DNA of 41,583 nt, taken from contig NZ_FOZS01000010.1 of assembly GCF_900116205.1 (NCBI RefSeq), positions 1 to 41,583 on the forward strand, written 5' to 3'. Of this stretch, positions 993 through 37,256 are shown one piece after another (the stretch's first letter is position 1; every line of letters begins with the position of its first letter). The DNA comes from Halostagnicola kamekurae (GTDB lineage Archaea > Halobacteriota > Halobacteria > Halobacteriales > Natrialbaceae). Under the pieces are notes generated by a model, which worked only from the letters and a program-made list of their open reading frames with translations, was not told where the DNA came from and searched no databases. A program made the translations under genes and the position numbers.

Positions 993-2036
993 CTACAGAG
1001 GCATCTCAAGTGCGATTTCTTCCTCCCTCTTGAGCGCCTCAAGATATGCTTCGGCGTCAAGCGCTGCCATGCTGCCAGTACCAGCGGCGGTGATCGCCTG
1101 TTGATAGTGCGGATCAGCGACGTCGCCGGCGGCGAAGACGCCCTCGACCGTGGTCTTGGTCGTCGTGCGGCCGTCGTTGTCGGTTCGAGTGTGGAGGTAG
1201 CCGCTCTTGTCACGGTCGACGGCGGTCCCCTCGAGGAACTCGGTATTCGGCGTGTGCCCAATTGCGTAGAACACACCGCCGACGTCGATCGTCTCGAGCA
1301 TCACGTCGGGGTCGTTTGCAGTTTTTTCGAGGGGATAGCCTTCGGGATGAGAGACAAGCGTCGCGCCGGTGATTCCCTCTTCTTGTGAGCCCTGGAGCGC
1401 TTCAAGTTCCGTATTCCAGCGGAACTCGATGGCCTCATTATCACGGGCGCGGTCAGCCATGATCTCGGATGCGCGCAGTTCCTCGCGACGGTGAACGATC
1501 GTCACGCTGTCGGCGAACTTTGCGAGGAAGAGCGCCTCTTCCATCGCCGAATCGCCGCCGCCAATCACGAGGACGTCGTCACCGCGGTGGAACGCGCCGT
1601 CGCAGGTTGCACACGTGGAGAGCCCGTAACCCATCAGTTCGTCTTCGTTCTCGGCGCCGACCCAGCGAGCGCTCGCGCCGCTCGCGACGATCAGCGCACG
1701 CGTTTGCAACGTGTCGCCGTTCGAGAGTTCGAGTTCGAACGGCCGCTCCTCGAGCGTCACGTTTTCGACAGTGCCGTGAGTGAACTCAGCGCCGAAGCGC
1801 TCGGCCTGGTCCTTGCCGTTTTGGATCAGCTCCATCCCGCCGACGCCCTCAGGGAAGCCGAGGTAGTTCTCGATGTCGGTCGTCAGCGTCAGTTGGCCGC
1901 CCGGTTCGGGTCCCTCGAGCACCAGCGGCTCGAGGTCGGCCCGCGCGGCATAGACGGCCGCGGAGAGGCCAGCGACGCCGGAACCGACGAACACTACGTT
2001 GCGAACATCCGTGGTCGTGTCTGTTTCCTTGTTCAT
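993..2036 (-). CDS. trxB: thioredoxin reductase
   Basis: 347 residues, the usual length of the low-molecular-weight class. The FAD-binding GSGVAG lies at residues 18-23 and GPEPGGQL at 42-49. The redox-active disulfide CATC is at 142-145, a second dinucleotide fold GGGDSA at 159-164, HRR at 182-184, and the closing FAD motif FAAGDVADP near residue 300. It transfers electrons from a nicotinamide to thioredoxin in the cytoplasm. The ATG overlaps the stop of the upstream trxA by 4 bases (ATGA type), so the two are one transcript and translationally coupled. A conventional NADPH-binding site is suggested by the HRR motif. Function is secure; physiological electron donor is not. Confidence 0.95.
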   Translation of the reverse strand: MNKETDTTTDVRNVVFVGSGVAGLSAAVYAARADLEPLVLEGPEPGGQLTLTTDIENYLGFPEGVGGMELIQNGKDQAERFGAEFTHGTVENVTLEERPFELELSNGDTLQTRALIVASGASARWVGAENEDELMGYGLSTCATCDGAFHRGDDVLVIGGGDSAMEEALFLAKFADSVTIVHRREELRASEIMADRARDNEAIEFRWNTELEALQGSQEEGITGATLVSHPEGYPLEKTANDPDVMLETIDVGGVFYAIGHTPNTEFLEGTAVDRDKSGYLHTRTDNDGRTTTKTTVEGVFAAGDVADPHYQQAITAAGTGSMAALDAEAYLEALKREEEIALEMPL

Positions 2037-2389
2037 TCGGTGTATCTCTCGATCAGGCTACGGAGTCGGTCTTCCGGCAGCGCGCCGGACTGCTGTTCGA
2101 CCTGTTCGCCGTCCGCGAAGAAGGCCAGCGTCGGCACGCCGCGAACGCCGAACGAGCCCGCGAGTTGCTGGTGTTCGTCGACGTCGACCTTCGCGATCAC
2201 GGCCTCAGTCGTGTCCGCGAGCTGCTCAAGGACGGGATTGAGCATCTGACAGGGGCCACACCAGTCGGCGTAGAAGTCAACGAGGACGGCATCGTGCGCC
2301 GTCGTGACGTTCTCGAGGTGGCTTCTGCCGTCGATGTAGATCGGTTCGTCGAGCGATTCTCCGGAGGCGCCGCGTGCATCAGTTGCCAT
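2033..2389 (-). CDS. trxA: thioredoxin
   Basis: 118 residues starting at the ATG at 2389; the longer open frame upstream has no thioredoxin homology. The active site WCGPC is at residues 43-47 and the cis-proline loop GVPTL at 84-88. An N-terminal extension of about 25 residues precedes the fold. It reduces protein disulfides or persulfides and is recharged by the co-transcribed TrxB. A TATA-like ctttaaac lies about 27 bp upstream of the ATG, which fits a leaderless transcript. An ATTGTACAA box sits further upstream. Confidence 0.95.
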   Translation of the reverse strand: MATDARGASGESLDEPIYIDGRSHLENVTTAHDAVLVDFYADWCGPCQMLNPVLEQLADTTEAVIAKVDVDEHQQLAGSFGVRGVPTLAFFADGEQVEQQSGALPEDRLRSLIERYTE

Positions 2390-2411
2390 CACCACTACGT
2401 ATGGACTGATA

Positions 2412-2447
2412 GCGTTTAAAGGTTTTGTGAGATTTGTACAATATATA
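2412..2447 (-). promoter_or_regulatory. trxAB promoter with upstream ATTGTACAA box
   Basis: On the minus strand tatatattgtacaaat (about 2432-2447) is followed by the TATA-like ctttaaac (2414-2421), which is about 27 bp before the trxA ATG. The ATTGTACAA box recurs upstream of other sulfur genes in the window. Its location ahead of the TATA suits an activator site. Assignment is by pattern only. Confidence 0.5.
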
Positions 2448-2612
2448 GGCAGAAGGGCTTGGAGTACCCTCGTACAGCGCACATGGTGATGAACGGAGAA
2501 ATAAGCGGATAGCGTCGGATAGGTGGCCGCACAGGAGAATTCGGAGAGACATGGTGACGTTTTCGACGATCGAACCGTCTCTATCGGTTTTGCACATATA
2601 ACTAACAACCAG

Positions 2613-3176
2613 TTATTCGACGGAGTCGGTCGGTTCCTCTGAGGGACTCGCGTCAAAGCGCACGAAATACCCGGCTCGCGTTCCGACGCGCGCGTCGAAC
2701 GCCAGTCCCCGCCGTTCGACACGGCGTCGTAGCCCTTCGAATCCGACGAAGTGCGGGTCGGGGAGAGACTCGCCGACGACGAGTCGACCGTCCGGTTTCA
2801 GGACTCGCTCGAGTTCGTCGAGAGCTCGCTCCTGGTCAGGAATTTCCCCGAGGACTAAGACCAGATACGCGGCATCGAACGTGTCGTCCGGATACGGAAG
2901 CGATCGTGCGTCGCCGCGGATCGGTTCGATGTTCGGGTTCCCTCCTGTCGCATTCGCGCTCGGAGGTGCTCGACCATCTCCGATTGGACGTCCACGGCGT
3001 GCAGCGTCCCCGACGGTTCAATCGCTCGCACAACCGTCCCCGTGTAGTAGCCGGTTCCCGGGCCGACCTCGAGAAGACGTTCACCGGACCGGGGATGGAG
3101 CACGTCGCGCAGCCGGGAGCGAGTGATGACCGGGCGCGGGAAGTTGATCGCGTGGCGCTGGGCGTACGGGCACGGT
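2613..3176 (-). pseudogene. 5'-truncated, frameshifted class I methyltransferase
   Basis: The frame ending at the TAA at 2613-2615 contains PIRGDARSLPYPDDTFDAAY and then VLVLGEIPDQERALDELERV. The upstream part, in another frame, contains LLEVGPGTGYYTGTVVRAI (the SAM-binding glycine motif) and LHAVDVQSEMVEHLRARM. Together these make one SAM-dependent methyltransferase with a single frameshift near 2940. The start is missing: the sequence fuses at about 3172 to the truncated rhodanese-MBL gene upstream, in a different frame. One deletion appears to have removed the end of one gene and the beginning of the other. Confidence 0.75.
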
Positions 3177-3836
3177 GATGGGTTCGATCGCCTCGCCGTC
3201 GGCAAGAGGTTCGTAGTCGTACTCGACGCCCCGCTCGCTCGCGTGTTCTCCGAGATGGTAGGGGACGTCCAGCTCCGCCGCCAGTTTCGATCCACCCGAG
3301 ATGTGGTCGGCGTGGACGTGGGTGTCGAGGACGCGTTCGATCGTCAGCCCGGCCTCCTCGGCGACGATTTTGAACTGGTCCGTCTGTCGCGTCGGATCGA
3401 CGACTATGGCCGACTCGGCGTCTCTCGAGCCGACGACGTAGCCGAGACAGCCCTTCGCCCGTCGCTGGAGTTGCAGGACGTCGAGGTCGTCGTTTTCGGC
3501 CTCGACGGGAACGATCTCGTAGACTTTGCTCCAATCCTCCATGCCGCCCTTCACGACGGACACGTCGTCGTAGCCGTGTTGCTCGAGTTCGAAGCTGAAC
3601 GGCGTCGATGTAAGCCCCTTTCCACAGATCGCGACTACTGTCTCTCCGTCTTTGGCCTCCTCAACGCGCTCGAGTTCCTCGTCTCCGAACTCGTTGTCCG
3701 GACCGAACGGGATGTTCTCGGCGCCGTGAATACGCCAGCCCTCGTAACTATCTTCAGGGCGCGTATCGACGAGCGTGAACGACTCGTTTGAGTCAATCAT
3801 ATCCGCGAGCCGTTCAGGGGAAATTTGGTTCACCAT
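3171..3836 (-). pseudogene. rhodanese-MBL persulfide dioxygenase-like gene, 3'-truncated
   Basis: The N-terminal rhodanese domain carries the active-site loop CGKGLTS with Cys71. The MBL domain follows with its metal motif THVHADH at residues 172-178. Homology stops at about residue 222 (ADGEAIEPITV). The rest of the open frame, to 3081, is translated methyltransferase DNA in the wrong frame. The second-half MBL motifs (TPGHT, GDTLF, last His) present in the paralogues at 16689 and 27930 are missing, so the dioxygenase site cannot be complete. The rhodanese part could still fold. A good ribosome site (aaggaggt) precedes the ATG at 3836. Confidence 0.8.
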
Positions 3837-3906: not shown

Positions 3907-5700
3907 CTACCGGTACGGATTTCGTCCGCTCTCGGGAAAGCGAGTCCTGGTTGGGATTAACCGCGTCTCGCAGTACTCATCTCCGCCGGCGTAATCAACC
4001 CCCGGTTGGATGTACGGGTATGGTCCGTCAGCGGGCGTATTCTGGACCCATCCGCCGTTGTCGGGCGTCTGGACGAGCGTCGTCTCCTCATAATCGATCG
4101 GCGAGTAGTCATTGAGGTAGTCGACGACAACGTCAACCGGAACGACGCCGTCTTCAATGTCGATATCTTGGAACGGGAAGCCGCAGTTTCCGAGATCCCG
4201 TTCGGGATCACCGGGGCGGGTAAACGTCGCGATCGAGTATTGCGCTTCGGGATCGACTGGTTCCCCGTCGACGACGAAATCGACGAGTCTGCGTTCGCGT
4301 TTCGCGGTCGGATCGATGATCACCTCCACGTTCGAAGAGTAGTTCCGGACACGGCCGTCCTCTTGCTCGTAAACGTACGGTGTGAAGTTGTCAGTGAGGA
4401 ACGCCTCCATGTGGTTCAGCAGTTGCTGACCGTACGCCTCGCCGCGAGCCACTGGTGCGGTCATCGGAAACGCTTGATATAGGTGCTCAAGTGTTATCTC
4501 GCCGGCGGGAACTGCCGGACCGTAACGGAAGCCATGGGTGACCGCTAATTCGGTGCCGAAGTACGTTCGTAGTGCGTCGGCGAACAGCGCGTTCCAATCG
4601 CTCTCGAGGAACGATTGTCGATCGAGCGACGCCTCCGTCCTCCCGACGACTGTGTCCAGCGGCCGCTCGAGGGTTCCGTCCCCTCGATCGTAGGAGATTT
4701 CGTCGTCGAAGAACGGCGATCGGATATCCGCGACCGTACGTTCGGCTACCGGTTCCGGGTCGGATGTGTAGTCGTGGTCTTCGGCGAGACAATAGAGAAT
4801 GTGCCGAAATGCGACGCCATCGTCATCGATGTGGAGGTCCACGCGGCCGAGTCCGTCACCTGTTCCTGATTCGACGACGAGAGTCTCCGTCTTATCGATT
4901 AGGATCGGCTCGTGCGTGTACTCGTGGGTATGCGCACTGAACAGAACATCAATACTCTCGATGTCCTTTGCTGCTTGGACGGCCCACGGCAACCCGATCT
5001 CAGTGACCGCGAGGACGACATCAGCACCCTCGTTGCGCACGGATTCTGCAGCTTCCTCGAGCAATGCTGGGTGCTTTCCGAACCGGTACTTTCCCTCGTG
5101 GAACGCCGGCGCCATACGGTCGACGTAGACGTTCGTCATCCCGACGATTCCGACGTCGACGCCATTCGCACGTTCAATCGTGTAGGGTTCGAACAGCAAC
5201 CCGTCCGCATCTGGCCCGTAGAGGTTGTTCGCCAACACCTGCGCCTCGAGTTCGTCCATCAGATTCCGTAGGTTCCCGTCCTCGGCGGCCTCGTTCCCGA
5301 AGTCCCAGTTCCCCGGAACGTACACGTCCGGATCGATGTGCTCGGTTATCGGTTCTAGCATCGCCCTGCCCTTCGTGTACGTCGTCACCGCGGTGCCATG
5401 GAACGTGTCGCCGCTCATCAGCGTAAGCGTCTCATTGGTAGCCGAGCGGATCTCCTCGAGTTTGCCAGCCAACAGCGGGATCCCACCGCCGCGCCGGAGG
5501 ATCCGGTTGTCGCCAGCGAAGTCGAAATCGGGGTGCGATTCGGGATTATCGTAGTAGACGTGATATTCGGGAACGAGCTGGCCGTGAAGGTCGCTGACGT
5601 GGAGACAGACTACGTCCGGTACTTGTCCCTGATCGCGGTCAGCCTCGTCCGATCCGTCGAGCCGCTTCCACTCCTCCAAGTATTCCGTGTCGAGATCCAT
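3907..5700 (-). CDS. SoxB/UshA-type metallophosphoesterase
   Basis: 597 residues from the ATG at 5700; a GTG at 5715 would add five residues. A calcineurin-like metallophosphoesterase domain shows SDLHG (36-40), SGDTFHGT (96-103), PGNWDFG (129-135) and SAHTHEYTHEP (255-265). A 5'-nucleotidase C-terminal domain follows at about 340-540. In ordinary 5'-nucleotidases the third motif is GNHE/D; here the His is replaced by Trp (GNWDFG), recalling the altered motif of SoxB thiosulfohydrolases. No signal peptide is visible, so it is probably cytoplasmic. It lies 42 bp downstream of a class V aminotransferase on the same strand, in a sulfur-gene setting. The substrate is unproven: a nucleotide or a sulfur compound are both possible. 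Confidence 0.75.
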   Translation of the reverse strand: MDLDTEYLEEWKRLDGSDEADRDQGQVPDVVCLHVSDLHGQLVPEYHVYYDNPESHPDFDFAGDNRILRRGGGIPLLAGKLEEIRSATNETLTLMSGDTFHGTAVTTYTKGRAMLEPITEHIDPDVYVPGNWDFGNEAAEDGNLRNLMDELEAQVLANNLYGPDADGLLFEPYTIERANGVDVGIVGMTNVYVDRMAPAFHEGKYRFGKHPALLEEAAESVRNEGADVVLAVTEIGLPWAVQAAKDIESIDVLFSAHTHEYTHEPILIDKTETLVVESGTGDGLGRVDLHIDDDGVAFRHILYCLAEDHDYTSDPEPVAERTVADIRSPFFDDEISYDRGDGTLERPLDTVVGRTEASLDRQSFLESDWNALFADALRTYFGTELAVTHGFRYGPAVPAGEITLEHLYQAFPMTAPVARGEAYGQQLLNHMEAFLTDNFTPYVYEQEDGRVRNYSSNVEVIIDPTAKRERRLVDFVVDGEPVDPEAQYSIATFTRPGDPERDLGNCGFPFQDIDIEDGVVPVDVVVDYLNDYSPIDYEETTLVQTPDNGGWVQNTPADGPYPYIQPGVDYAGGDEYCETRLIPTRTRFPESGRNPYR

Positions 5701-5742
5701 ACGATGCTCTTTCACGTCCTACGAGAGCATGTATTCAAGTCG

Positions 5743-6900
5743 TTACCCTGCATTGTGCTTCCGCAATTCCCACTCTTGCTCCAGTCCGTCGAGCAGTCGA
5801 TCGATGTCGTTTGCAGTATTGACTGCGTGGACGGACGCTCGAACGGCGGTCGGAGATGGCAGTGCTCGAACGACGATTCCGTCGGCGGCCAGCCGTTCGA
5901 CTGTCGTCGCCGGATCGTCGACATCGATGGTCACGAGCCCCGACTCCGGTACTGAGGGGCTGAGAAGACGGTCAGCGGGGACACCGTCTACTAGTCGGCC
6001 GGCGAGACGGCGGACGCGGTCTTCGATCCGGTCGATCCCGACTTCATCAATCACGTTGATTGCTTCCCGGAGTGCAACGTGGGGTGCCGGGTTCGCTGAC
6101 CCAACTTCGAACCGACGTGCGCCGGCTGCGTACTCGTAGGGATCGTCGGATGGCGTCTCGACGCTTCGATAACCGACCGTTCGCGGCTCGAAACCCTCAG
6201 CGACGTCACGGTCGACGTAGAGGAAGCCGCCGCCCCACAGTCCGAGAAGCCACTTATGGCCGGCAGCAGCGACCGCGTCGGCACCCCACTCCGCGACGTT
6301 CATTGGTAGTTGTCCGGGGACCTGTACGGCGTCGACGAGCGCAAGCGCACCAGCGTCGTGGGCGATATCAACCAATTTCCCTACCGGAAGCTGCGTCCCG
6401 TGGGTCCACGTGACCGCGCTGAAGCAGGCGACTCTGGCATCCGTAACGACCTCGGCGAAACGCTCGAGATCGACGCGGCCGTCCTCGGTCTTGACGACCC
6501 GAACCTCGACGCCTTCCCGCTTGAGGCGTTGCCATGGGAGAATTCCAGCGGGATGCTCAAGGTCCGTCCGCACGACGACGTCGCCGGGTTGCCAGTCGAT
6601 CGCGTTGGCGACGGCGTTGATCCCGGCCGTCGTACTCTCGGTGAGCGCGATCTCGTCCGGGTTGGCGCCGACAAACGACGCGACTCGCTCTCGAGTGCGG
6701 TCGAAGGCTCGAAACGCCGTCTCGTAGGGGTGGTCGCCAACCGGTGACTCATACTCGTGCTCGCGGACGAACTCGTCGGCGGCATCGACGACGTATTTCG
6801 GACTTGGACCGTGAGCGCCGAAATTGAGATAGGTTCCGTCCTGTAAGGCAGGGATATCCGCCCTGAACTCGGTCGGCGTCATCGTCGGACTCGGTTGCAT
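5743..6900 (-). CDS. class V aminotransferase, desulfurase-like but lacking the catalytic Cys
   Basis: 385 residues with the PLP fold of the cysteine desulfurase / isopenicillin N epimerase group. The Schiff-base lysine is K216 in AAGHKWLLG and the pyridine-binding Asp is D190 in LALVDAVQ. The phosphate-binding stretch TESTTAG is at 88-93. The only cysteine in the whole protein is C159, inside the fold, and the C-terminal region (RALPSPTAVRASVHAVNT) where SufS carries its active Cys has none. Classic cysteine desulfuration is therefore unlikely. It precedes the SoxB-like gene and may share its transcript. A second ATG six codons in (MTPTEF) is an alternative start. Confidence 0.85.
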   Translation of the reverse strand: MQPSPTMTPTEFRADIPALQDGTYLNFGAHGPSPKYVVDAADEFVREHEYESPVGDHPYETAFRAFDRTRERVASFVGANPDEIALTESTTAGINAVANAIDWQPGDVVVRTDLEHPAGILPWQRLKREGVEVRVVKTEDGRVDLERFAEVVTDARVACFSAVTWTHGTQLPVGKLVDIAHDAGALALVDAVQVPGQLPMNVAEWGADAVAAAGHKWLLGLWGGGFLYVDRDVAEGFEPRTVGYRSVETPSDDPYEYAAGARRFEVGSANPAPHVALREAINVIDEVGIDRIEDRVRRLAGRLVDGVPADRLLSPSVPESGLVTIDVDDPATTVERLAADGIVVRALPSPTAVRASVHAVNTANDIDRLLDGLEQEWELRKHNAG

Positions 6901-7155: not shown

Positions 7156-7509
7156 ATGCCTGAACCAAGAGGCGATGACACTGGGGAACAATTGGGAATC
7201 GTACTCGAAACCAGCGATCCCGAACGCGCGTGGAACGCCTTTCGTCTCGGAATCACCGCACTAGAGAACGGAAACGACGTATCAGTGTTCCTACTCGGCG
7301 ACGGCGTCGAAGCTGAGGAGATCACGGACGATCAGTTCGATGTACGGAATCGAATGGAGGAGTTTGACGAGGCCGGCGGGGAGTTGCTGGCCTGTGGCAC
7401 CTGTCTGGACATCCGAAACAGCGATGGGAGCGAGGTCTGCCCGATCTCGACGATGAACGATCTCCTCGAGGTCGTGACGACCGCCGATCGAGTGCTGACG
7501 ATCGGATAG
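7156..7509 (+). CDS. DsrE/DsrF-like sulfur-carrier protein
   Basis: 117 residues, the size of single-domain DsrE-fold proteins. The N-terminal beta-alpha unit is LGIVLETSDPERAWNAFRLG. C80 and C83 (LLACGTCLDIR) sit at the position where DsrE-type proteins carry the reactive cysteine, and a third Cys (C95) follows in SEVCPIS. Such proteins accept and hand on sulfane sulfur as cysteine persulfide in the cytoplasm. The gene stands alone with its own promoter, followed by a CoA-disulfide reductase remnant on the opposite strand. A role in a sulfur relay with TusA and the rhodanese proteins is inferred from context. Confidence 0.88.
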   Translation: MPEPRGDDTGEQLGIVLETSDPERAWNAFRLGITALENGNDVSVFLLGDGVEAEEITDDQFDVRNRMEEFDEAGGELLACGTCLDIRNSDGSEVCPISTMNDLLEVVTTADRVLTIG

Positions 7510-7569: not shown

Positions 7570-8055
7570 GATCCATCCTGTCGACTGCAGACGCCCATAC
7601 TTCGGACAGACACGCGTACACCATCGCGTTCCCGATGAGTGCGTCGACGGTCGTGTACTCGTCGACCGCATGGACGGTATCCGTCGCGAGCGCGAACTCT
7701 ACCGTCAGAACGCCGGCGTTTCGAAGTGTCTTCGCGTCGCCGCCGCCGGTCGCGACGAGCAGGTCGTCTGTCTCGACCGTCACGAGTTTCGGTTCGCGAT
7801 CGATGTCGGCGACCTCTGCGCCAGTGTGCAGGTCGACGCCCCGCTTTTCGTGAACTCTTTGGGCGTCACGGCTACGAGGTCGTCCAATTCGTCGACCACG
7901 CCCTTGACGTAGTAGGGCATCCCACAGGGGGCGTACGGCATCCACTCGCCCTTCTCGAAGACAATCACGCCGAGGTCCGGTTCCTCGCGTTTCGCCTATC
8001 TCGCGGCGCTTATTCCCACGACGTTACCACCGATGACGACGAACGTATCGGTCAT
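7570..8055 (-). pseudogene. remnant of a pyridine-nucleotide disulfide (CoA-disulfide) reductase
   Basis: From the ATG at 8055 the minus strand reads TDTFVVIGGNVVGISAAR, the N-terminal FAD motif. It then shifts frame to IVFEKGEWMPYAPCGMPYYV with the characteristic Cys of CoA-disulfide reductase / NADH oxidase. It shifts again to KRGVDLHTGAEVADIDREP, and then LLVATGG. After that a large internal segment is missing and only VHAVDEYTTVDALIGNAMVY remains. It is clearly non-functional. In sulfur-metabolising prokaryotes such enzymes reduce CoA disulfide, CoA persulfide or polysulfide, so a thiol-redox gene has been lost from this island. Confidence 0.8.
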
Positions 8056-13215: not shown

Positions 13216-14139
13216 TCAAAAGAACAACGTTGGCACGGTGTTCCGCAAGATGTTAAGTGAGATGACGAACAGTAGTCCGACGACGAACCAGTTGAACGTT
13301 CGTTCGTCGAACTCGAGACGCCGGAGGTACGTGCCCAACAGCAGGCCGACGACCGTGACCACTGCAATCACGGAGCCGAGCCAGATCCGATAGGTCGTCA
13401 GGAGCTCGGTAAATAGCGCCATCTGGACGATCCGGACCGTGAATATCGTTCCGAGCACCATCGAGAGTCCACCGATGTACCTCTCGGCGTTTCGTTCGAA
13501 GGTGTGGAAGTACGCCGGCAGTAGCGGTCCAAGGTTCGCGAACGCGAGCAAAAATCCCTGCGAGAATCCTGCGGTTCCGAGAGCAAACGGATGGTGTGCC
13601 TCTTCGACCATGACGAAGTTCTGGGCGACTTGAAAGGCGACGTAGCCGAGGAGGACGAGGGCGATGACGAAGGGGACCAGCGGCCCAGTGCTGAACGTCG
13701 CCAGCGCTACGACGCCGAGGACGGTTCCGACGATGGCGAGTAACAAGAGCGGCCACTCTTCGCGAACGAACGCCCGTCCCGTACTGGTTTCTGCGATCTG
13801 AAACATGTTGAGCATCCATGGCGGGATAGCCAGGACGACGACGGCGACGGTTGGATCAATTACTGTGGCGAAGATCGGCGTCATGATGAGCGAGTAGCCG
13901 AAGCCGGTCATTCCCTTCACGATACCAGCGACAACCGCGACCAGACTCAACGCGGCGAGCAAGCCGATTGAGAGATCCGATTCAATACCTTGGCCGACGC
14001 TCTCGAATCCGGGGAAGAAGACAATCGAGGCGACGAAAGCGGCCAGCGTCGCGCCGACCATCGTCAGTTCTCGAGACCGGAACTCCAGGAGGTTGCTGAG
14101 GAACTGTTCGATATCGGCTGGAGATTCGGGAGCACTCAT
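13216..14139 (-). CDS. TauE/SafE-family anion exporter, paralogue 1
   Basis: 307 residues with about eight hydrophobic helices. The family hallmark VAGIVKGMTGFGYSLIMTP lies near residues 70-88, and the second-half repeat is ALGTAGFSQGFLLAFANLGPLLP. Members export sulfite, sulfoacetate or related anions. It is convergent with ccdA, with stops only 2 bp apart, so the two transcripts must meet here. It differs strongly from the TauE at 18506 in sequence and loop lengths, so these are not recent duplicates. Confidence 0.85.
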   Translation of the reverse strand: MSAPESPADIEQFLSNLLEFRSRELTMVGATLAAFVASIVFFPGFESVGQGIESDLSIGLLAALSLVAVVAGIVKGMTGFGYSLIMTPIFATVIDPTVAVVVLAIPPWMLNMFQIAETSTGRAFVREEWPLLLLAIVGTVLGVVALATFSTGPLVPFVIALVLLGYVAFQVAQNFVMVEEAHHPFALGTAGFSQGFLLAFANLGPLLPAYFHTFERNAERYIGGLSMVLGTIFTVRIVQMALFTELLTTYRIWLGSVIAVVTVVGLLLGTYLRRLEFDERTFNWFVVGLLFVISLNILRNTVPTLFF

Positions 14140-14452: not shown

Positions 14453-16240
14453 CTATTTTGGTGCCGCAGTCGCCATGTTACCCACCTCAAGGGCCAGTTC
14501 GGAATCGCGGTCGGTTTTTGTCGTTTCCTTTTCGATCACGAAATCCTCGAGAACGAGTACATCTAGACCCATCCCGTAGAAGTCCTTGATCGCTTGCGTC
14601 GGCGTCCGTACGATCGGTTCGGCGTGATCGTTAAACGAAGTGTTGAGGACAACTGGCACGCCGGTGATGTCGGCGAATTCGGAGAGGAGACGGTGGTAGC
14701 GTGGATGTTGCTCCTCACGAACTGTCTGCGGACGCGTCGAGTCGTCAGACGGATGTAGGACTGCCTCCAGGTCTCTGGTTTTCTCGGGTCGAACGTCGTA
14801 CGCGTCGATCATGAACGGTGACGGTCCGTCGTTGACGAGGTACTCATCGGCGGCTGACTCGAGCATCGACGGCGCGAACGGACGCCACTCCTCTCGATGT
14901 TTGACGAACCGGTTCACCCGGTCTCGAGATGCCGTGGTGCGAGGATCGGCGAGGATGCTTCTGGCACCGAGCGCCCGCGGTCCCATCTCCATCCGGCCCT
15001 GGAACCAGCCGACGAGGTCGCCGTCGGCGAGCCGTTCGGCGACGTACCGCTCGAGGTCCTTCGGTTGCGCGTACTCGAGTTTGTTCGTCTTGACGGTCGA
15101 TTTTATCTCTTCGGCGTCGTATTCGGGACCGAGATAGACAGTGGTCTGACGGTCGACGGCCGACGGCGACTGCCCCGTCCATCCCGCACCGAGCGCGAGT
15201 CCCGCGTCGTTGGCGACCGGTTGGACGAAGATATCGTCGATCAGCGGCGACTCGCGAACGCGTTTGTTCAGTTTGCAGTTTAGCGCGACGCCGCCCGCCA
15301 TCGAGACGTTCGCCGTGTCCAACTGATCGACGGCTGTTTCCGCGATGTCGACGACCGTCTCCTCGAGCAGTTTCTGAGAGGTATGCGCGAGGTCTTTCTC
15401 CCACTGGTCGAACTCGCCAGGCGTCTCGTTTCGAGGACGGCCAAACGCGTCCTCGAGGGTTTCGGTGCCGTGGCCGGTTCCCCAGCGCTTCGTCAGTTCG
15501 GTGACGTCGTAATCGGCGCCCGTGTCGATCAACTCGCGCAGGACGCCTTCGATCTCCGGATTGTCCTCGCCATAGGGTGCCAGCCCCATCACTTTCCCCT
15601 CGCCGTTGAACATCCGGTAGCCGAGGAACTCCGTGACGACCGCGAAGAAGAGTCCGAGACTGTTCGGGTGTTCGTAGGTGTACGCGCGTGTCAGGCCGTC
15701 CTCGTCGTCGGCATACCAGACGACTGTCGAATCGTACTCACCTTTCGCATCGATCGTAAGAACGACGCCATCGTCGAACCCGGACGGATGGAACGCGCTC
15801 GCAGCGTGGCAGCGGTGATGCGGAATCGTCTCGATCGGCGGCACCGGCGAACCGATCGACTCGAGGCGATTCTCGATCTGTCGGGTCGGAACGAACCGGC
15901 TCCGAACCTGCGTGACGAGCGTCTGCTCGAGTGCGGAGAGTTTTCGTCCAAATCCGGGTACTTGGATCGCGTCGGAAACGTAGTGTGAAGCGATCTCGCC
16001 ACGGAGCTGCGGCTCGTACGGGAGGAGAATCCGATTCAGGTCCGGAAGAGACAGGTTTCGATAGTCGAGACACGCCCGGATCGCGTGTTTGGGAAACGTA
16101 TCCGTGGCGTGTTTGTCCCGCGTGTATCGCTCTTCCTCAACGCCGAAGACGGGCGTTCCGTCATCGAAGAGAACGGCGCTCGGGTCGTGCTGGCCGTAGA
16201 GTCCGATCGCCGGTTTGAACGCGAGTTGATAGTCAGTCAT
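14453..16240 (-). CDS. O-carbamoyltransferase (NodU/CmcH/TobZ family)
   Basis: 595 residues from the ATG at 16240. The N-terminal Kae1-like ATPase domain shows HHRCHAASAFHPSGF (141-155), LTIDAKGEYDS and FNGEGKVMGLAPYG (211-224), and VSMAGGVALNCKLN further on. The C-terminal YrdC-like domain shows GRMEMGPRALGARSI and PSMLESAADEYL. The family uses carbamoyl phosphate and ATP to carbamoylate a hydroxyl on sugars, antibiotics or surface glycans. No glycan or biosynthetic genes lie nearby, so the acceptor is unknown. Palindrome D is 55 bp upstream of the start. Confidence 0.9.
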   Translation of the reverse strand: MTDYQLAFKPAIGLYGQHDPSAVLFDDGTPVFGVEEERYTRDKHATDTFPKHAIRACLDYRNLSLPDLNRILLPYEPQLRGEIASHYVSDAIQVPGFGRKLSALEQTLVTQVRSRFVPTRQIENRLESIGSPVPPIETIPHHRCHAASAFHPSGFDDGVVLTIDAKGEYDSTVVWYADDEDGLTRAYTYEHPNSLGLFFAVVTEFLGYRMFNGEGKVMGLAPYGEDNPEIEGVLRELIDTGADYDVTELTKRWGTGHGTETLEDAFGRPRNETPGEFDQWEKDLAHTSQKLLEETVVDIAETAVDQLDTANVSMAGGVALNCKLNKRVRESPLIDDIFVQPVANDAGLALGAGWTGQSPSAVDRQTTVYLGPEYDAEEIKSTVKTNKLEYAQPKDLERYVAERLADGDLVGWFQGRMEMGPRALGARSILADPRTTASRDRVNRFVKHREEWRPFAPSMLESAADEYLVNDGPSPFMIDAYDVRPEKTRDLEAVLHPSDDSTRPQTVREEQHPRYHRLLSEFADITGVPVVLNTSFNDHAEPIVRTPTQAIKDFYGMGLDVLVLEDFVIEKETTKTDRDSELALEVGNMATAAPK

Positions 16241-16294
16241 GGCTCGTGAAAGTGATGTATCGTAACCTAACCCAGGAGACGGCAAAACGACGCT

Positions 16295-16321
16295 GACGAT
16301 TTGCTGACCCAGCAAATCGTC
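16295..16321. promoter_or_regulatory. palindromic operator copy D
   Basis: This is the longest copy: 12-base arms gacgatttgctg / cagcaaatcgtc around acc. It lies 55 bp upstream of the carbamoyltransferase ATG on the minus strand, with a weak TATA-like ttacgatac between. It is the most perfect of the four copies and could anchor a footprinting test. Confidence 0.6.
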
Positions 16322-16546
16322 GGCAACGCAGTCGTGTTCGTCGTCGGCCTGGCACTGGCGGTCCGCATTCGAACGGATCTCGACGCGATCGAGCACTCTG
16401 CCCGAGACCTCGCCCGGCGCGACGCCTGCAAGCAGTCCACCGACCGTCAGTGTCAGCTACCGCTCGACGCGTATTCACGGTTCTCGTCGATGTTTCTCCG
16501 ACAGCAGAAATCGGTATACCCGATTGAACTGGATACCGGTTCGTGA
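16301..16546 (+). other. coding-like frame of uncertain reality
   Basis: Downstream of palindrome D the plus strand keeps a GC-rich third-position pattern for about 45 codons (VVFVVGLALAVRIRTDLDAI), which resembles a membrane helix plus an acidic tail. It has only a TTG start that lies inside the palindrome, and the second half loses the pattern. It may be a remnant of a displaced gene. I do not regard it as a proven gene. Confidence 0.2.
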
Positions 16547-16689
16547 ACGGGAAAACTGTTCCATTGGGGCCGGAATCCGCTGGGCCGCACGTTCGTCTTC
16601 CAGTTCCCGTTACCGAACCCAAACTGTTCTCTCACGACGGTCGTCCAGAGCTCCGACGACAGCGTGACCGTTCGAACGACTGACGACAT
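16453..16689 (-). CDS. small hypothetical protein coupled to the rhodanese-MBL gene
   Basis: 78 residues. Its ATG overlaps the stop of the rhodanese-MBL gene (TAATG), and third positions are moderately GC-rich. A vicinal Cys pair (TDFCCRR) lies in the C-terminal third. I recognise no family. The overlapping arrangement suggests translational coupling, but the frame may be a chance one. Confidence 0.3.
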   Translation of the reverse strand: MSSVVRTVTLSSELWTTVVREQFGFGNGNWKTNVRPSGFRPQWNSFPVHEPVSSSIGYTDFCCRRNIDENREYASSGS

Positions 16690-17819
16690 TAGTTCGCAGC
16701 GCAGTTGTTCGGCCCGAGTTCGAGCGCCTCGACGTCCCCGCCGGGTTGCTCCCTGCCCCAGTTGATCTGCTTAATCTCGTTGTAGTTCGCTGGTTCGTCC
16801 GCGAGGCTCTCGACGATGGTCTCGACGAACGCCTCCTCGTCGCCGTCCTCGACGTGACTCAGGAGTTCGTTGGTCGTCTCTTCCTGGAGGTCGCCGAGTT
16901 CGGTCGCGAGCGGGCGAATCGACTCGTCACTGAAGTGACCCGGAAGGACGACGGTCTCGTCCGCGAGGTCCGTCAGCCGCTCGAGGCTGTCGAACAGCTG
17001 GCTCGAGGCCTCCCGAATGGCCTCCTCCTCGCTGTCCTCGAGGTCGGGACGGCCGACGCTGCGGAGGAACAGCGTGTCTCCGGAGAGGAGAGCGTCACCG
17101 AACCGGAACGAGACGCTGCCGGGGGTGTGTCCCGGCGTGTGGAGCACCTCGAGGTCCCGGTGGCCGACGGGAATCGTCTCGCCGTTTGCGAGTTCCGTGA
17201 CGTTCTCGAGCTCGCCGGCGTCGTCCCCGTGGAGGTGATAGGGAACGTCGAGTTCACCGGCGAGTCGGCGGGCGCCCGAGACGTGGTCGGCGTGGGCGTG
17301 GCTGTCCGCGACGCCGACGATCTCGAGGTCGCGCTCGTCGGCCGCGTTCAGGTACCGATCAACGTACTGGCTCGGATCGACGACGACGGCCTCCTCGCCG
17401 TCGTGGGCGAGGTACGAGACGCAGCCCGTCCCGGGGCGGACGACCTGAACGACTCCCTCGACACCCGCACTCTCCTCAAGGTCGTACTGACGGTGGACGC
17501 GACCCCAGCCGTTCATGCCGTCGTCGATGGATCTCGCGTCGAACCCGTGTTCGCGAAGGAACTCCGCCGCTCGCGTGGACGTGATGCCAGCGACGCAGAC
17601 GACCGCGATCTCCGTGTCTTTCGGGAGCTCGTCCAGGTGCTCCTCGAGCGTGGAGTAGTTGTACTCCAGCAGTTCGTCGTAGATGGGTACGTTCGTGCTC
17701 CCGTCGATCCGCCACTCCTCGTAGTCGTCCTCGTTCCTGACGTCGAGGACGAAGAGGTCCTCCTCGTCTTCTTCGATGCGTCGTGCGACTTCCGTCGGAT
17801 CGAAGTTAATATTGTTCAT
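16689..17819 (-). CDS. rhodanese-MBL fusion, persulfide dioxygenase-like
   Basis: 376 residues from the ATG at 17819. The N-terminal rhodanese (about 5-112) has active-site Cys75 in VVCVAGITS. The MBL domain has SHAHADH (173-179), TPGHTPGS (228-235), GDTLF (247-251) and LPGH (H295), the metal ligands of the ETHE1-type dioxygenase fold. A conserved end PANYNEIKQINWG is followed by ELGPNNCAAN. It would take a sulfane sulfur on Cys75 and oxidise persulfide to sulfite. In well-known bacterial fusions the MBL part comes first, so the order is reversed here. A TATA-like cttaag lies about 30 bp upstream. Confidence 0.9.
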   Translation of the reverse strand: MNNINFDPTEVARRIEEDEEDLFVLDVRNEDDYEEWRIDGSTNVPIYDELLEYNYSTLEEHLDELPKDTEIAVVCVAGITSTRAAEFLREHGFDARSIDDGMNGWGRVHRQYDLEESAGVEGVVQVVRPGTGCVSYLAHDGEEAVVVDPSQYVDRYLNAADERDLEIVGVADSHAHADHVSGARRLAGELDVPYHLHGDDAGELENVTELANGETIPVGHRDLEVLHTPGHTPGSVSFRFGDALLSGDTLFLRSVGRPDLEDSEEEAIREASSQLFDSLERLTDLADETVVLPGHFSDESIRPLATELGDLQEETTNELLSHVEDGDEEAFVETIVESLADEPANYNEIKQINWGREQPGGDVEALELGPNNCAAN

Positions 17820-17998
17820 TTCACCCAATTCTACACGATACTGGCCCTTAAGTCCGTTGCCGGACTGTGCGTCAGTCGATGTCTCCGTCGGAACTGAGGG
17901 CTGGACGTGAGACGAAATGCTGAGATGGGAGCGCTGTCGAACGGCACTCCGCAGCGGAGACTCGAGAGTCTTCCGAGAGTTCCGATACCAGATTTCAG

Positions 17999-18505: not shown

Positions 18506-19543
18506 TTAGTTCGTGGACGTCGTGGACGCGTTCGACTGCGCTCGCATCGTCATGATCGTGCTGACGATCACGGCCCCGCTGACCATGAACGCCGAGAGCA
18601 GGATCAGTGCAAAACTGACCGTATTCAGTACGTCCATTCCGAGGTAGTCGCCCGCCTGACGGAACGCGACGGCGATCGAACCACCGACCAGCATCAGTCC
18701 GAAGTAGATCTTGATGTCGTCTTCGTTGACGATGCCGGTCGCGGCCGAGCCGATCCGGGCGCCGAGCGCGCTCCCCGCAAGTAGCGGTGCGACGATCGAG
18801 AGATCGACGCCGCCGTTGAGTCCATAGGTGAACGCGCCGAACCCGCCCGAGAAGACGATCTCGAAGAGGTCGGTCCCGACCGCGACGGGAACCGGGACGC
18901 CGATGAGGTAGACCATCGCGGGCATCTTGATGAAACCGCCACCGACACCCAGGAAACCCGACAGCAGACCCGTGGCGAACGCGACGACCAGAATCAACCA
19001 GAGCGAGACCTGGATCCCGCCGGCAACTGTCATCATCGGCGGGATACGGTAAGACTGAATCCGCTTCGCGAGGGGCGGAATCGCGTCCGGATCGATCTCC
19101 CCGTCGGACTCGTGGTGGCTGCTACTCGAATCGTCTCCGCCGTCGTTTACGAGCGCATTTCGGGTGACGAATAGCCCGACCGCACCCAACAGGACGACGT
19201 ACGTGACGCCGATGGCACCGCTGGCGAGTCCCAATTCCTCGAGATAGTACACTATCCGACTCCCTACCTCGATACCGCTCGTCGTCCCGACGATCATCAG
19301 TCCGCCAAGTTTGTAGTCGACCTGGCCGAGGTCGCGGTGTTTCAGCGTCGCGATCATGGCCGTCCCGAAGACGAAGGCCATGCCGCTCCCAACGGCGACT
19401 CTGGCGGGATACCCCATTACGAGTAACGCCGGTGTGACGAGGAACGAACCGCCCATGCCAAAGAAGCCGAATAGGACGCCGACCATGAAACCGAAGCTTA
19501 TGAACAGTGCGAGCGTCATCAGGGCGATTCCGAATAGCTCCAT
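18506..19543 (-). CDS. TauE/SafE-family anion exporter, paralogue 2
   Basis: 345 residues. Hydrophobic helices occur in two related halves: GVLFGFFGMGGSFLVTPALL in the first and SGFLGVGGGFIKMPAMVYLI in the second, both bearing the Gly-rich TauE signature. A hydrophilic acidic loop (about 133-160, GDDSSSSHHESDGEIDPD) divides them. It probably exports sulfite or a related anion made by the persulfide-oxidising enzymes. The ATG at 19543 directly follows the stop of a DUF7512 micro-gene, so the two are one operon. Confidence 0.9.
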   Translation of the reverse strand: MELFGIALMTLALFISFGFMVGVLFGFFGMGGSFLVTPALLVMGYPARVAVGSGMAFVFGTAMIATLKHRDLGQVDYKLGGLMIVGTTSGIEVGSRIVYYLEELGLASGAIGVTYVVLLGAVGLFVTRNALVNDGGDDSSSSHHESDGEIDPDAIPPLAKRIQSYRIPPMMTVAGGIQVSLWLILVVAFATGLLSGFLGVGGGFIKMPAMVYLIGVPVPVAVGTDLFEIVFSGGFGAFTYGLNGGVDLSIVAPLLAGSALGARIGSAATGIVNEDDIKIYFGLMLVGGSIAVAFRQAGDYLGMDVLNTVSFALILLSAFMVSGAVIVSTIMTMRAQSNASTTSTN

Positions 19544-26948: not shown

Positions 26949-27410
26949 TTAGTCGGCGCTCACTGAGCCGGAGTCAGCGGCGGCACGCTTGCTGCGCCAG
27001 ACCCCCTGCAGGTAGGCGCCGGCGAACATGCCGACGAGCGCCCACAGGATGGTGACGTTGCCGATCCCAAGGCTGGCGTAGGCCGCGCCGGGACAGATCC
27101 CCGACAGTCCCCAGCCAACACCGAAGATCGCGCCGCCGATCAGGACGTTTCGATCGAACGATTTTAGCCGACGACGGTACACGTCGCCCGTCAGCGGTGC
27201 GCTGTCGCGAATCCGGGGCATGATCGCGAAGGCGATCCCGGAGACAATCGCGGCACCAAACATGACGAACGGCAGGCCGAAGTCCTCGAACTGGAGGAAG
27301 TCCAGCACGACTTCCGGCCGGGCCATGTGGCTGTACGCCAGTCCGAAGCCGAAGATCAGGCCGCCGACAAGGATCAGCGGCATGAACAGCGGATGGCGAT
27401 TTCTGCTCAT
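26949..27410 (-). CDS. YeeE/YedE-family half, second subunit
   Basis: 153 residues with four hydrophobic helices. The signature GVGWGLSGICPGAAYASLG (98-116) contains C106 at the site where YeeE/YedE (TsuA-like) proteins hold a cysteine for thiosulfate transfer. The longer transporters contain two such halves in one chain; here they are separate genes. The ATG is one base after the first subunit's stop. Confidence 0.9.
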   Translation of the reverse strand: MSRNRHPLFMPLILVGGLIFGFGLAYSHMARPEVVLDFLQFEDFGLPFVMFGAAIVSGIAFAIMPRIRDSAPLTGDVYRRRLKSFDRNVLIGGAIFGVGWGLSGICPGAAYASLGIGNVTILWALVGMFAGAYLQGVWRSKRAAADSGSVSAD

Positions 27411-27411
27411 C

Positions 27412-27924
27412 TTACGGACTCACCCCCATCGCCTGGACGATCTGGGCGGTCACGATCGCGACCGTCAGGAACGTGATCACGCCGACGATCGACGTTTTCG
27501 AGGCCGAGCCGACGCCGCATACCCCGTGGCCCGACGTGCAACCCTTCCCGACGCGCGTCCCGATCCCGACGAGGACGCCACCGAGCAGCAACCGCCAAGG
27601 CTGGACGTCGGTTGTCCACGTCCCGCCCTGCCAGAAGACGGCGTAGACCGCCGCTCCCAGAATAATTCCGAGCGTGAAGACGACGCGCCAGTTCCGGGAG
27701 CCGCGGTACTGCTTGAACCGTGACTGATCCGAAACGTACGACAGCGTCGACTCGAGGAACGTACTCGCGCCTGCGGCGATCCCCGTCCCGAGATAGATGA
27801 CGACTGCGCCGAGGCCGACGAGTAGTCCACCGATAGCGTACCGGGAGATGCCGTTGGGAAACGGCTCGGCGGGCACTATCTGACCCGGAGCGGCGAGTTC
27901 GGCGAGCATTGCGATCTCGATCAC
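27412..27924 (-). CDS. YeeE/YedE-family half, first subunit
   Basis: 170 residues from the ATG at 27924 (a second ATG six codons in is possible). Five hydrophobic helices are predicted. The signature VGKGCTSGHGVCGVGSAS contains C129 and C136, again the sulfur-handling position. Together with the second subunit it should form the complete inner-membrane channel for a sulfur anion such as thiosulfate. It starts 5 bp after the stop of the rhodanese-MBL gene at 27930, making a three-gene operon. Confidence 0.9.
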   Translation of the reverse strand: MIEIAMLAELAAPGQIVPAEPFPNGISRYAIGGLLVGLGAVVIYLGTGIAAGASTFLESTLSYVSDQSRFKQYRGSRNWRVVFTLGIILGAAVYAVFWQGGTWTTDVQPWRLLLGGVLVGIGTRVGKGCTSGHGVCGVGSASKTSIVGVITFLTVAIVTAQIVQAMGVSP

Positions 27925-27929
27925 GGTTA

Positions 27930-29123
27930 TCAGTCACCCGCCAGCGACTCTTGGCTGGCCGCGCAGTTGTTCGGGCCGAGCTCGAGTTCGAATGCTTCCT
28001 TGTCGTCGGCCTCCTGCTGCCCGAGATTCGTGGGAATGATGTCCTCGTAGTTGGCCGGACGGGGCGGCATATCCGAGAGAATCAGCTCGACGAACGCATC
28101 CTCGTCCATCGTCAGAGCGTCCATCTCCGACTCGATCTGGCCGATCGGTACCGTATAGGTGCCATCGTCGGCGGGATCGGCGGAGTCACTGAAGTGAGCC
28201 CCGCCGACGAGCGTGTCGTTAGGCAGAGTCAGCACGCGCTCCTGCAGCGACTCGTAGAGCTGGCGTGCGGCGTCTTCTGCGCCCTCGTCGCCCTCCTCTA
28301 AGTCGGGGCGGGCAACACTCTCGACGAACAGGCCGTCGCCAGTCGCAAGCAGCGAGTCCTCGATCAGGTACGAGGTCATCCCGGAGGTATGTCCGGGCGT
28401 GTAGACGGTTTCGATCGTGGCAGCACCGACTTCGAACTCGTCGCCGTCTGCTGCGAGAGTCATCTCGTCGGCGTAGGTGATACCACGGTCGACCGCCGCC
28501 TTGGGGATGACGCCCTCGACGCCCTCATCGGCGAGGTCGCGGATCCCCGAGATGTGATCCGCGTGGATGTGCGTGTCGATTGCGTACTTCAGGTCGACGC
28601 CCAGTTCGTTCACATCTTGGAAATAGCGGTCGGTGAATGCACGCAGTGGGTCAATCAAGGCCGCCTCGTCACCGTCAACGATGAGGTAGCCGAGACAGCC
28701 GCTCGAGGGACGCTGGTACTGGTAGAGCGTCCCCGCCCCGTCGTAGCGCTCGACCTCGACGCGCTCGTAGATGCGCGCCCAGCCGTTCATCCCATCCTCA
28801 AGGTGGTCGACGTCGTAGCCGCGCTCTCTCAACTGTGCGGCGACGTACTCGCTCGAACCACCCTTCGCACAGAGAACCGTAACTTCGCGGTCATCGGGAA
28901 TCTGTGCAAGGACATCATCATCAATTTCGTCGTCCAGGAACTCGAAGTACGGGATGTTGGTCGATTCAACGGTCTCTCCGTCGATCTTCCATTCGTTGTA
29001 CTCCGATTCCATGCGGGTATCGAGGAGCGTGACGTCCTCACCCGCGTCGATTCGTCCCTTCAATTCGTCTGGACTGACCGATTCGATCTCGACGTCCGGC
29101 ATTGGAAGATCCATATCGTCCAT
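27930..29123 (-). CDS. rhodanese-MBL fusion, persulfide dioxygenase-like, with YeeE pair
   Basis: 397 residues. The rhodanese domain has Cys85 in VLCAKGGSS. The MBL domain carries THIHADH (184-190), TPGHTSG (242-248), TGDGLF (261-266) and H310. The end PANYEDIIPTNLG is followed by ELGPNNCAAS, the same tail as in the paralogue at 16689, where it is C-terminal. It is likely to accept sulfane sulfur delivered by the transporter pair downstream and oxidise it to sulfite. An inverted repeat in its promoter carries the ATTGTRYA-type box. Confidence 0.92.
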   Translation of the reverse strand: MDDMDLPMPDVEIESVSPDELKGRIDAGEDVTLLDTRMESEYNEWKIDGETVESTNIPYFEFLDDEIDDDVLAQIPDDREVTVLCAKGGSSEYVAAQLRERGYDVDHLEDGMNGWARIYERVEVERYDGAGTLYQYQRPSSGCLGYLIVDGDEAALIDPLRAFTDRYFQDVNELGVDLKYAIDTHIHADHISGIRDLADEGVEGVIPKAAVDRGITYADEMTLAADGDEFEVGAATIETVYTPGHTSGMTSYLIEDSLLATGDGLFVESVARPDLEEGDEGAEDAARQLYESLQERVLTLPNDTLVGGAHFSDSADPADDGTYTVPIGQIESEMDALTMDEDAFVELILSDMPPRPANYEDIIPTNLGQQEADDKEAFELELGPNNCAASQESLAGD

Positions 29124-29286: not shown

Positions 29287-29334
29287 TATTGTGCAATAAT
29301 CGGAGGTCTTATATGGGAGCACCCAATATTGTAT
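29287..29334 (+). promoter_or_regulatory. promoter of tusA-dsrE2 with two ATTGT boxes
   Basis: tattgtgcaata (29287-29298) is palindromic except for the two central bases. It precedes the TATA-like cttatatggg (29308-29317). A second element tattgtat (29327-29334) lies downstream near the expected transcript start. The tusA ATG follows at 29366. Confidence 0.5.
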
Positions 29335-29365
29335 GATAGCTCCAATACGGGGCCAGAACGAAACT

Positions 29366-29611
29366 ATGAGTTCGGAATACCAGACCACGGAGACGCTAGA
29401 CGTGAAAGGACAGTCGTGCCCGATGCCCATCGTGAAGACCAAGCAATCGATTGACGATCTCGAGGCCGGCGACGTCCTCGAGGTCGTCGCGACTGACTCG
29501 GGCAGCATGAGCGACATTCAGGGGTGGGCCGACGGCACCGACGGCGTCGAACTCCTCGAGCAGGTCGAGGAGAACGATTTGTACACTCACTACGTGAAGA
29601 AAACGGAATAA
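29366..29611 (+). CDS. tusA: TusA/SirA-family sulfur carrier
   Basis: 81 residues, the family size. LDVKGQSCPMPIVKTKQ contains the reactive C18 in the CPxP motif of TusA. The rest (VLEVVATDSGSMSDIQGW) matches the alpha/beta fold. The ATG at 29366 is chosen over an upstream in-frame ATG (29333) since homologues begin near MSSEY. It relays sulfane sulfur between rhodanese, DsrE proteins and acceptors. The stop overlaps the dsrE2 start (TAATG). Confidence 0.93.
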   Translation: MSSEYQTTETLDVKGQSCPMPIVKTKQSIDDLEAGDVLEVVATDSGSMSDIQGWADGTDGVELLEQVEENDLYTHYVKKTE

Positions 29612-30201
29612 TGAGCACGGATAACCCAACGACGGCAGTCGACGACGCCGATACGGACGTCGACGCCGCCGAGTTACAGGCGCTGCGCGAGCGCGTCGAG
29701 AAATTAGAAGAATCGATGGCAGCGGTGGACACTGGCGACGATCAGAAGAAGATGACCATCGTCGCGACACAGGGGAGCTTCGACATGGCGTATCCACCGT
29801 TAATCCTCGCGAGCACTGCGGCCGCCTTCGGCTGGGAGGTTGTCGTCTTCCACACATTTTGGGGCCTCGATATCCTCCACGAGGAGAAGTCGAAGGACCT
29901 CAAGTTGAGCGCCGTCGGCAACCCGAACATGCCAGTACCCAATGCCGTCGCTGCGCTGCCCGGCATGGACACGATGGCTACGAAGATGATGCAGAAGAAA
30001 ATCGACGAGAACGGGACTGCCACCATCGAGGAACTGATTGACCTCTCGCTCGAGAGCGGCGTCGACCTGCAGGCCTGTCAGATGACGATCGAACTGATGG
30101 ACTACGACGAGGACGACTTCTACGACGGCGTCACCACCGGCGTCGGCGCGGCCACCGCGTTGCAACACATGGCCGAATCCGACATTCAGCTCCTTGTCTA
30201 A
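29611..30201 (+). CDS. DsrE2-type sulfur-carrier protein
   Basis: 196 residues. After a hydrophilic head with a short coiled coil (ELQALRERVEKLEESM, about 21-36) comes the DsrE2 core: MTIVATQGSFDMAYPPLILA, VVVFHTFWGLDIL, NPNMPVPNAVAALPGMDTMA and LQACQMTIELM with C156. The coiled coil may mediate assembly. It is translationally coupled to tusA, a pairing seen in many sulfur oxidisers, and probably accepts sulfur from TusA. Confidence 0.92.
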   Translation: MSTDNPTTAVDDADTDVDAAELQALRERVEKLEESMAAVDTGDDQKKMTIVATQGSFDMAYPPLILASTAAAFGWEVVVFHTFWGLDILHEEKSKDLKLSAVGNPNMPVPNAVAALPGMDTMATKMMQKKIDENGTATIEELIDLSLESGVDLQACQMTIELMDYDEDDFYDGVTTGVGAATALQHMAESDIQLLV

Positions 30202-36122: not shown

Positions 36123-36581
36123 TTATTCATCAAGAGCTCCGATAGACTCGAGATAGCCACGGATTTCGATAACAAACTGTCGGTACCGCTCGAGATCTTG
36201 GAGTGCGTTGTACACCACATCGTGTTCGATGATCTCACCATAGGTATGCGCGAGGACATTACGAAATCGAGTACCCTGTGCCATTGCGTCAGCCGTTGAA
36301 GCAGACAGTATCTCGAGTTCCTCGAGTGCTTGCATCGATTCGGGATTGCTCACTGGCGGGGTTCCGCGCTCGTGTTTGACCAGTTCTTCACCGATGTCGA
36401 TGGCTGCCTCGGTCATTTTCACGAACCGACGCTCAACGATGTCTTGCGTGTCTGAATCAGCATGATACGCCTCACGGCTCAGCGACTGCTTCCGAGCGAG
36501 GACGCCCAAGCTCACTTCGATCGTCTCGACAGCGGTAAGTATTCGATTGAGGCGGTCAGAAGGAAACGTCCCGCCTGTCAT
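36123..36581 (-). CDS. hepT: HepT-family RNase toxin
   Basis: 152 residues, all-helical. R107 and the catalytic pattern R-x4-H-x-Y occur in RFRNVLAHTYGEI (H112, Y114). HepT toxins cleave RNA and are held in check by MntA-type nucleotidyltransferases through AMPylation of the Tyr. Its ATG overlaps the stop of the mntA-like gene by 4 bases, the expected order. Confidence 0.9.
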   Translation of the reverse strand: MTGGTFPSDRLNRILTAVETIEVSLGVLARKQSLSREAYHADSDTQDIVERRFVKMTEAAIDIGEELVKHERGTPPVSNPESMQALEELEILSASTADAMAQGTRFRNVLAHTYGEIIEHDVVYNALQDLERYRQFVIEIRGYLESIGALDE

Positions 36582-37060: not shown

Positions 37061-37256
37061 TATCGGAAAAGACGTTCTTGTTGCACATAAACGCTCAGGT
37101 GATAGCCAGGGGAATCGGATTCGCATAACGAGACTCGGTAGTCCACCAGTCTAACTGTGTATTCTCAGATTTTGTTTGACAAATATGTGAACATGCTATA
37201 GAGAAAATCGAATCAGGGAGGATATTGAATGCTATTTTCGAACCGCTGGAAATTTG

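Follow-up and report, generated by a model that had tools for sequence, protein, structure and literature searches.

What does a SoxB-like metallohydrolase do in a haloarchaeon when no Sox partner is encoded around it and no export signal precedes it? The question is raised by a gene of Halostagnicola kamekurae lying in a stretch of 41,583 nucleotides (hereafter the window), which is one entire contig of a 4.11-Mb genome assembled into 16 contigs and 99.94% complete. The open reading frame, which runs on the minus strand from an ATG at 5698-5700 to a stop codon at 3907-3909, exactly as the first-pass annotation had drawn it, is a real gene; an alternative GTG start at 5715 would give a protein of 602 residues, and the domains matched are Metallophos and 5_nucleotid_C. 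Against five near-identical relatives its dN is 0.017-0.019 and its dS 0.14-0.17, so that purifying selection is strong (dN/dS about 0.1), and this ratio, together with motifs shared by 72 sequences, rules out a pseudogene or a chance ORF. The family is conserved in haloarchaea: the closest named relatives belong to Natrinema and Natrialba, in the class Halobacteria (96-97% identity), and an ortholog or ortholog fragment was found in 48 of the 391 genomes sampled from that class, spread over 28 of 86 genera, with many copies being plasmid-borne. The features of the window that bear on its function are collected in the table.

Table. The SoxB-like gene, its active-site positions and associated genes in the window
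Feature	Position	Strand	Basis or remark
SoxB-like metallohydrolase	3907..5700	-	597 aa, without signal peptide
D37 and H39 (SDLHG), conserved metal-ligand positions	5584..5592	-	alignment
D98 (SGDTFHG), metal-ligand position	5407..5409	-	alignment; UshA D84
N131-W132: metal-ligand Asn, then Trp replacing nucleotidase catalytic His	5305..5310	-	sequence; codons N131 5310-5308, W132 5307-5305
E234, invariant Glu replacing metal-ligand His	4999..5001	-	alignment; UshA H217
H257 and H259 (SAHTHEYT), conserved metal-ligand positions	4924..4932	-	alignment
Thioredoxin-reductase-like gene	993..2036	-	family match
Thioredoxin gene	2033..2722	-	family match; ORF over-extended at 5' end
Rhodanese-metallo-beta-lactamase gene, 5' part	3081..3836	-	aa 1-234 of 382; tblastn with intact Natrinema zhouii protein
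Class-V aminotransferase / desulfurase-like gene	5743..6900	-	same strand, 42 bases upstream of hydrolase
DsrE-family gene, divergent	7156..7509	+	family match
TauE/SafE exporter	13216..14139	-	family match
Rhodanese-metallo-beta-lactamase fusion, intact	16689..17828	-	family match
TauE/SafE exporter, second	18506..19543	-	family match
Two YeeE/YedE-type sulfur transport half genes (DUF6691, Sulf_transp)	26949..27924	-	family match
Rhodanese-metallo-beta-lactamase fusion, second intact	27930..29123	-	family match
TusA	29333..29611	+	family match; about 24 kb from hydrolase
DsrE2-type gene	29524..30201	+	match spans aa 74-224; true start probably later

The first-pass annotation had described the protein as lacking both a signal peptide and Sox partners, and both descriptions hold. 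Neither a signal peptide nor a Tat motif, lipobox or hydrophobic stretch was found at the N-terminus, and of 40 orthologs 32 have an in-frame stop no more than 24 codons before the aligned start, which leaves no room for a signal peptide and rules out that one was missed upstream. Because of these stops and the want of any such N-terminal feature, the sequence points to a protein that is most likely cytoplasmic. Export signals, either Tat or lipoprotein, are present in true haloarchaeal nucleotidases and in all of the SoxB sequences aligned. As for partners, the window contains no Sox gene, and models for SoxY and SoxZ, the two Sox proteins sought genome-wide, find neither in the host genome, although both models find their gene in a Sox-bearing control plasmid; this rules out, for SoxY and SoxZ, a true SoxB served by an overlooked Sox cluster elsewhere.

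The active site departs from that of nucleotidases at PGNWDFG (residues 129-135), where nucleotidases have GNH(E/D), a substitution already recognized in the first-pass annotation. PGNWD is invariant, as are SGDTFHG, EIGL and HTHEYT, in all 72 haloarchaeal sequences, some of which are near-duplicates. In E. coli UshA, H117 and D120 form the catalytic pair, R375, R379 and R410 are the substrate arginines, and F429 and F498 provide base stacking. An alignment with UshA shows metal ligands D41, H43, D84, N116 and H252 conserved in the family, but Trp at H117, Gly, Ser or Ala at D120, Ser or Ala at R375, a gap at R379, Gly at R410, Met, Val or Gln at F429 and Arg or Lys at F498. True haloarchaeal nucleotidases in the same alignment retain H117, D120, R379, R410, F429 and F498, while SoxB, like the family, is without the catalytic pair, the three arginines and both phenylalanines. 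With the catalytic and substrate residues of UshA missing, the active site is, as had been proposed, SoxB-like rather than nucleotidase-like.

The tryptophan is the one seen in SoxB, where the position is Trp in 2wdc and Cys in the 4uwq chain, a disulfide-linked SoxB-SoxYZ complex, so that in SoxB the Trp is probably within reach of the carrier arm; that the Trp is kept and the nucleotide site lost points to a substrate of the thiosulfonate type. The likeness to SoxB (TIGR04486; Thermus 2wdc, Paracoccus) extends to the two-domain architecture and, in the C-domain, to GxR(W/Y)G and a similar NF..P..Y.Q..G stretch. The insertion that follows the DxH motif is shorter than in SoxB and differs from it; the hydrolase also has about 60 more residues than SoxB at the C-terminus, no Tat signal, and an Asn before the Trp where SoxB has His (HWE). 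The earlier remark that GNW occurs in SoxB-type variants is accordingly true of signal-less SoxB-like proteins from Firmicutes and not of canonical SoxB, which reads HWE(F/W/Y)T.

A further difference from SoxB lies in the metal site, where E234 takes the place of a His kept by SoxB and nucleotidases alike, and the site may therefore differ in metal, in activity or in both. This Glu is invariant in 72 of 72 haloarchaeal sequences, and no such His-to-Glu change occurs in the SoxB, bacterial or nucleotidase rows of the alignment, a pattern that could also reflect a SoxB-like protein whose catalysis has changed or been lost and which has a binding or regulatory role. We regard such a role as very improbable, since the remaining metal-ligand positions are invariant in all but one sequence, purifying selection is strong and Glu, too, can serve as a metal ligand.

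Profile scores and trees set the hydrolase apart from both named families. It scores 192 bits against the SoxB model TIGR04486, for which the curated cut-off is 550 bits and a Rhodobacter SoxB used as a control reaches 860 bits, and about 45 bits against nucleotidase models. In profile-profile comparison, the haloarchaeal family scores 472 with a signal-less bacterial group, 375 with SoxB and 337 with nucleotidases, and the top solved-structure match to its sequence profile is SoxB (2wdc/4uwq, 121 bits), the next being a nucleotidase at 68 bits. Two maximum-likelihood trees both recover a nucleotidase clade that excludes the hydrolase (100/98 and 99/98) and a SoxB clade that likewise leaves it out (100/99 and 100/100); the clear grouping with nucleotidases that the first-pass annotation had named as speaking against its own reading was not found. 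The missing residues and the position outside the nucleotidase clade rule out an ordinary 5'-nucleotidase, and on sequence grounds the protein is not a true SoxB either. A grouping of the haloarchaeal family with signal-less relatives from bacteria and methanogens, to the exclusion of SoxB, is one possible arrangement (96/97 in the first tree, 85/79 in the second), the stem of the haloarchaeal branch measuring 1.85 changes per site; the alternative, in which the family is joined to true SoxB, is another, with a p-AU of 0.45.

A basal position beside the nucleotidases has a p-AU of 0.36 and would suit a phosphoesterase that acts on a new small substrate and sits by chance in stress-resistance islands. 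Superfamily membership, an Asn metal ligand shared with nucleotidases and the closeness of the fold-search scores all lean the same way, but every UshA substrate residue tested is missing along with the catalytic His/Asp pair, and sulfur genes adjoin the family and its relatives in distant lineages, so that we consider a phosphoesterase of this kind unlikely. The fold search itself was given little weight, as Foldseek ranks SoxB only narrowly before nucleotidases and the AlphaFold model, for which the usable alignment was limited to close orthologs, is for that reason weak (mean pLDDT 60).

The signal-less relatives in bacteria are SoxB-like proteins of about 480 residues, found on plasmids and annotated as bifunctional metallophosphatase/5'-nucleotidase. 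They resemble the hydrolase in having no export signal, in their Trp at the same site, in their loss of the nucleotide residues and in giving it its best profile score, and most adjoin sulfur-transfer genes; they differ in length, in forming a separate clade, in keeping His at the E234 position and in reading mostly HWEFAYG, with GNWD(Y/F)AYG confined to the two Firmicutes of the group. The copies in Sphingobium, Pontibacter, Cohnella, Sporosarcina and Hymenobacter lie amid DsrE, metallo-beta-lactamase, YeeE/YedE, TauE, TusA, rhodanese or TlpA/DsbA genes; near a second Hymenobacter copy and a Bosea copy there are no clear sulfur-transfer genes. Proteins of this signal-less type are also encoded in 12 genomes examined from the phylum that includes Halobacteria; these genomes carry McrA and therefore belong to methanogens or their close kin, and none of the 12 encodes SoxZ. 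Exported SoxB-like proteins of Bacteroidetes (L080:4150-5802, L084:7866-9542), which have GNWE and an Asp at a metal-ligand His, form a further branch.

Within haloarchaea, the neighbourhood was compared across 47 loci, which are not independent, several being near-identical plasmid clusters. At 32 of these the gene that follows on the same strand, no more than 800 bases away, encodes a rhodanese-metallo-beta-lactamase fusion of the persulfide-dioxygenase type, and 26 have a divergent TauE/SafE gene no more than 1 kb upstream. The host genome has only six rhodanese-metallo-beta-lactamase genes, and with that number the expected chance of such adjacency is well under 1%. The fusion gene is missing at about a third of the loci, and several have no recognisable sulfur neighbour. 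In the window, the copy adjoining the hydrolase is cut at residue 234 and runs into methyltransferase sequence (2616-3190); Natrinema zhouii (L088) has an intact copy of each of the two genes. Other observations from the window are a remnant of an FAD-dependent oxidoreductase at 7745-8055, intact in related clusters (448 aa), a carbamoyltransferase gene at 14453-16396 among the sulfur genes, and a HepT-like and nucleotidyltransferase pair at 36123-37126 that resembles a HepT/MNT toxin-antitoxin module. In Natribaculum breve (L031:10449-15161; the same genome as L046), a molybdopterin oxidoreductase gene and TtrB/DsrO-like iron-sulfur genes stand directly upstream of the hydrolase, and are kin to thiosulfate or tetrathionate reductases with scores below the cut-offs for those enzymes.

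Genes for multicopper oxidases, cupredoxins and copper P-type ATPases also recur beside the hydrolase (L090, L091 and other haloarchaeal loci). A multicopper oxidase is encoded within 8 kb at 23 of the 47 loci and a cupredoxin at 10, neighbours that fit copper stress as well as they fit sulfur use; metal or copper P-type ATPases are found nearby in Halorussus and Halomicrobium, and genes for heavy-metal efflux accompany a Bradyrhizobium relative. These genes would be expected if the loci were copper or metal stress islands whose hydrolase serves a response to copper, by processing sulfur compounds or binding metal, rather than sulfur oxidation. The closest conserved genes are nonetheless those for the rhodanese-metallo-beta-lactamase protein and TauE, and sulfur and thiol genes abound in the window itself and in the Natrinema clusters, where copper genes are few, which makes a copper-response role, in our estimation, quite unlikely.

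Active site and neighbours together lead us to favour, at about even strength, a sulfur substrate: the protein would be a cytoplasmic dinuclear-metal hydrolase from the SoxB side of the 5'-nucleotidase superfamily, likely releasing sulfate from a thiosulfonate. The predicted reaction is a hydrolysis, R-S-S-SO3- + H2O -> R-S-S- + SO4(2-), in which R may be a low-molecular-weight thiol, a polythionate end or a cysteine of DsrE or TusA. The leftover persulfide would then be oxidized to sulfite by the neighbouring rhodanese-metallo-beta-lactamase protein, and the sulfite would leave the cell through TauE/SafE. What is inferred here is the substrate with its chemistry, the passage of sulfur from one protein to the next and the identity of the carrier or thiol; E234 at the metal site, the loci without the fusion gene or any recognisable sulfur neighbour and the truncation, in the window, of the rhodanese-metallo-beta-lactamase copy beside the hydrolase count against this reading, and DoxD (TQO), as a source of tetrathionate, was not found in the host genome.

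Such a reaction has precedents. The substrate of SoxB itself is apparently SoxY-thiosulfonate and not SoxY-sulfonate (PMC5336275), and in Metallosphaera, DsrE3A and TusA take thiosulfonate from tetrathionate, forming Cys-S-thiosulfonates from which, in the case of TusA, sulfonate is released by what was stated to be an as yet unknown mechanism (PMC4175335). This unassigned release step speaks for a more specific proposal, namely that the substrate is a thiosulfonate bound to TusA (or DsrE) and the hydrolase a cytoplasmic counterpart of SoxB acting on SoxYZ. TusA and DsrE2 are encoded on the same 41.6-kb contig, DsrE lies divergently upstream at 6 of the 47 loci, TusA and DsrE are found near the Cohnella and Sporosarcina relatives, and in two methanogen genomes a DsrE-family gene overlaps the end of the related gene (L139:5562-5900, L140:7343-7681), so that the idea of a carrier fits the methanogen relatives better. 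TusA, however, is within 8 kb at none of the 47 haloarchaeal loci, the six with DsrE all represent one Natrinema/Natrialba-type cluster, and carrier binding is purely hypothetical. A carrier-bound substrate such as TusA, which the first-pass annotation had put forward, is possible and not specifically supported, and we rate the proposal as rather unlikely.

The broader thiosulfonate reading bears comparison with Erythrobacter flavus 21-3, whose SoxB homolog D0Y83_01365 acts without SoxYZ and is needed, on genetic evidence, for the conversion of tetrathionate to sulfate and zero-valent sulfur (PMC7608252). It too is a SoxB-domain protein labelled metallophosphatase/5'-nucleotidase and clustered with rhodanese-metallo-beta-lactamase sulfur dioxygenases (PMC7608252, PMC9426585, PMC12172448); unlike the hydrolase, it is bacterial and partners the periplasmic TsdA, the comparison here being with its published description. 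With this report in print, a SoxB acting without Sox partners is not new, and to that extent the novelty first claimed for the gene falls away. What stands is the signal-less archaeal branch with its altered metal site: a full-text search of papers available without subscription returned no earlier account of the haloarchaeal family.

A widespread family of signal-less SoxB-like proteins encoded beside DsrE, rhodanese and persulfide-dioxygenase-type genes offers a concrete candidate for the sulfonate-release step of the Metallosphaera type. We suggest, tentatively and as a possibility short of the favoured reading, that the haloarchaeal proteins, together with their relatives in bacteria and methanogens, may be the missing cytoplasmic sulfate-releasing hydrolase for protein- or thiol-bound thiosulfonates, a Sox-independent form of SoxB chemistry for which the haloarchaeal enzymes would use an altered, Glu-containing metal site. 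If true, SoxB chemistry would be an intracellular process, carried out by heterotrophic haloarchaea and even by methanogens without a Sox pathway, and many database labels that now read 5'-nucleotidase would be corrected.
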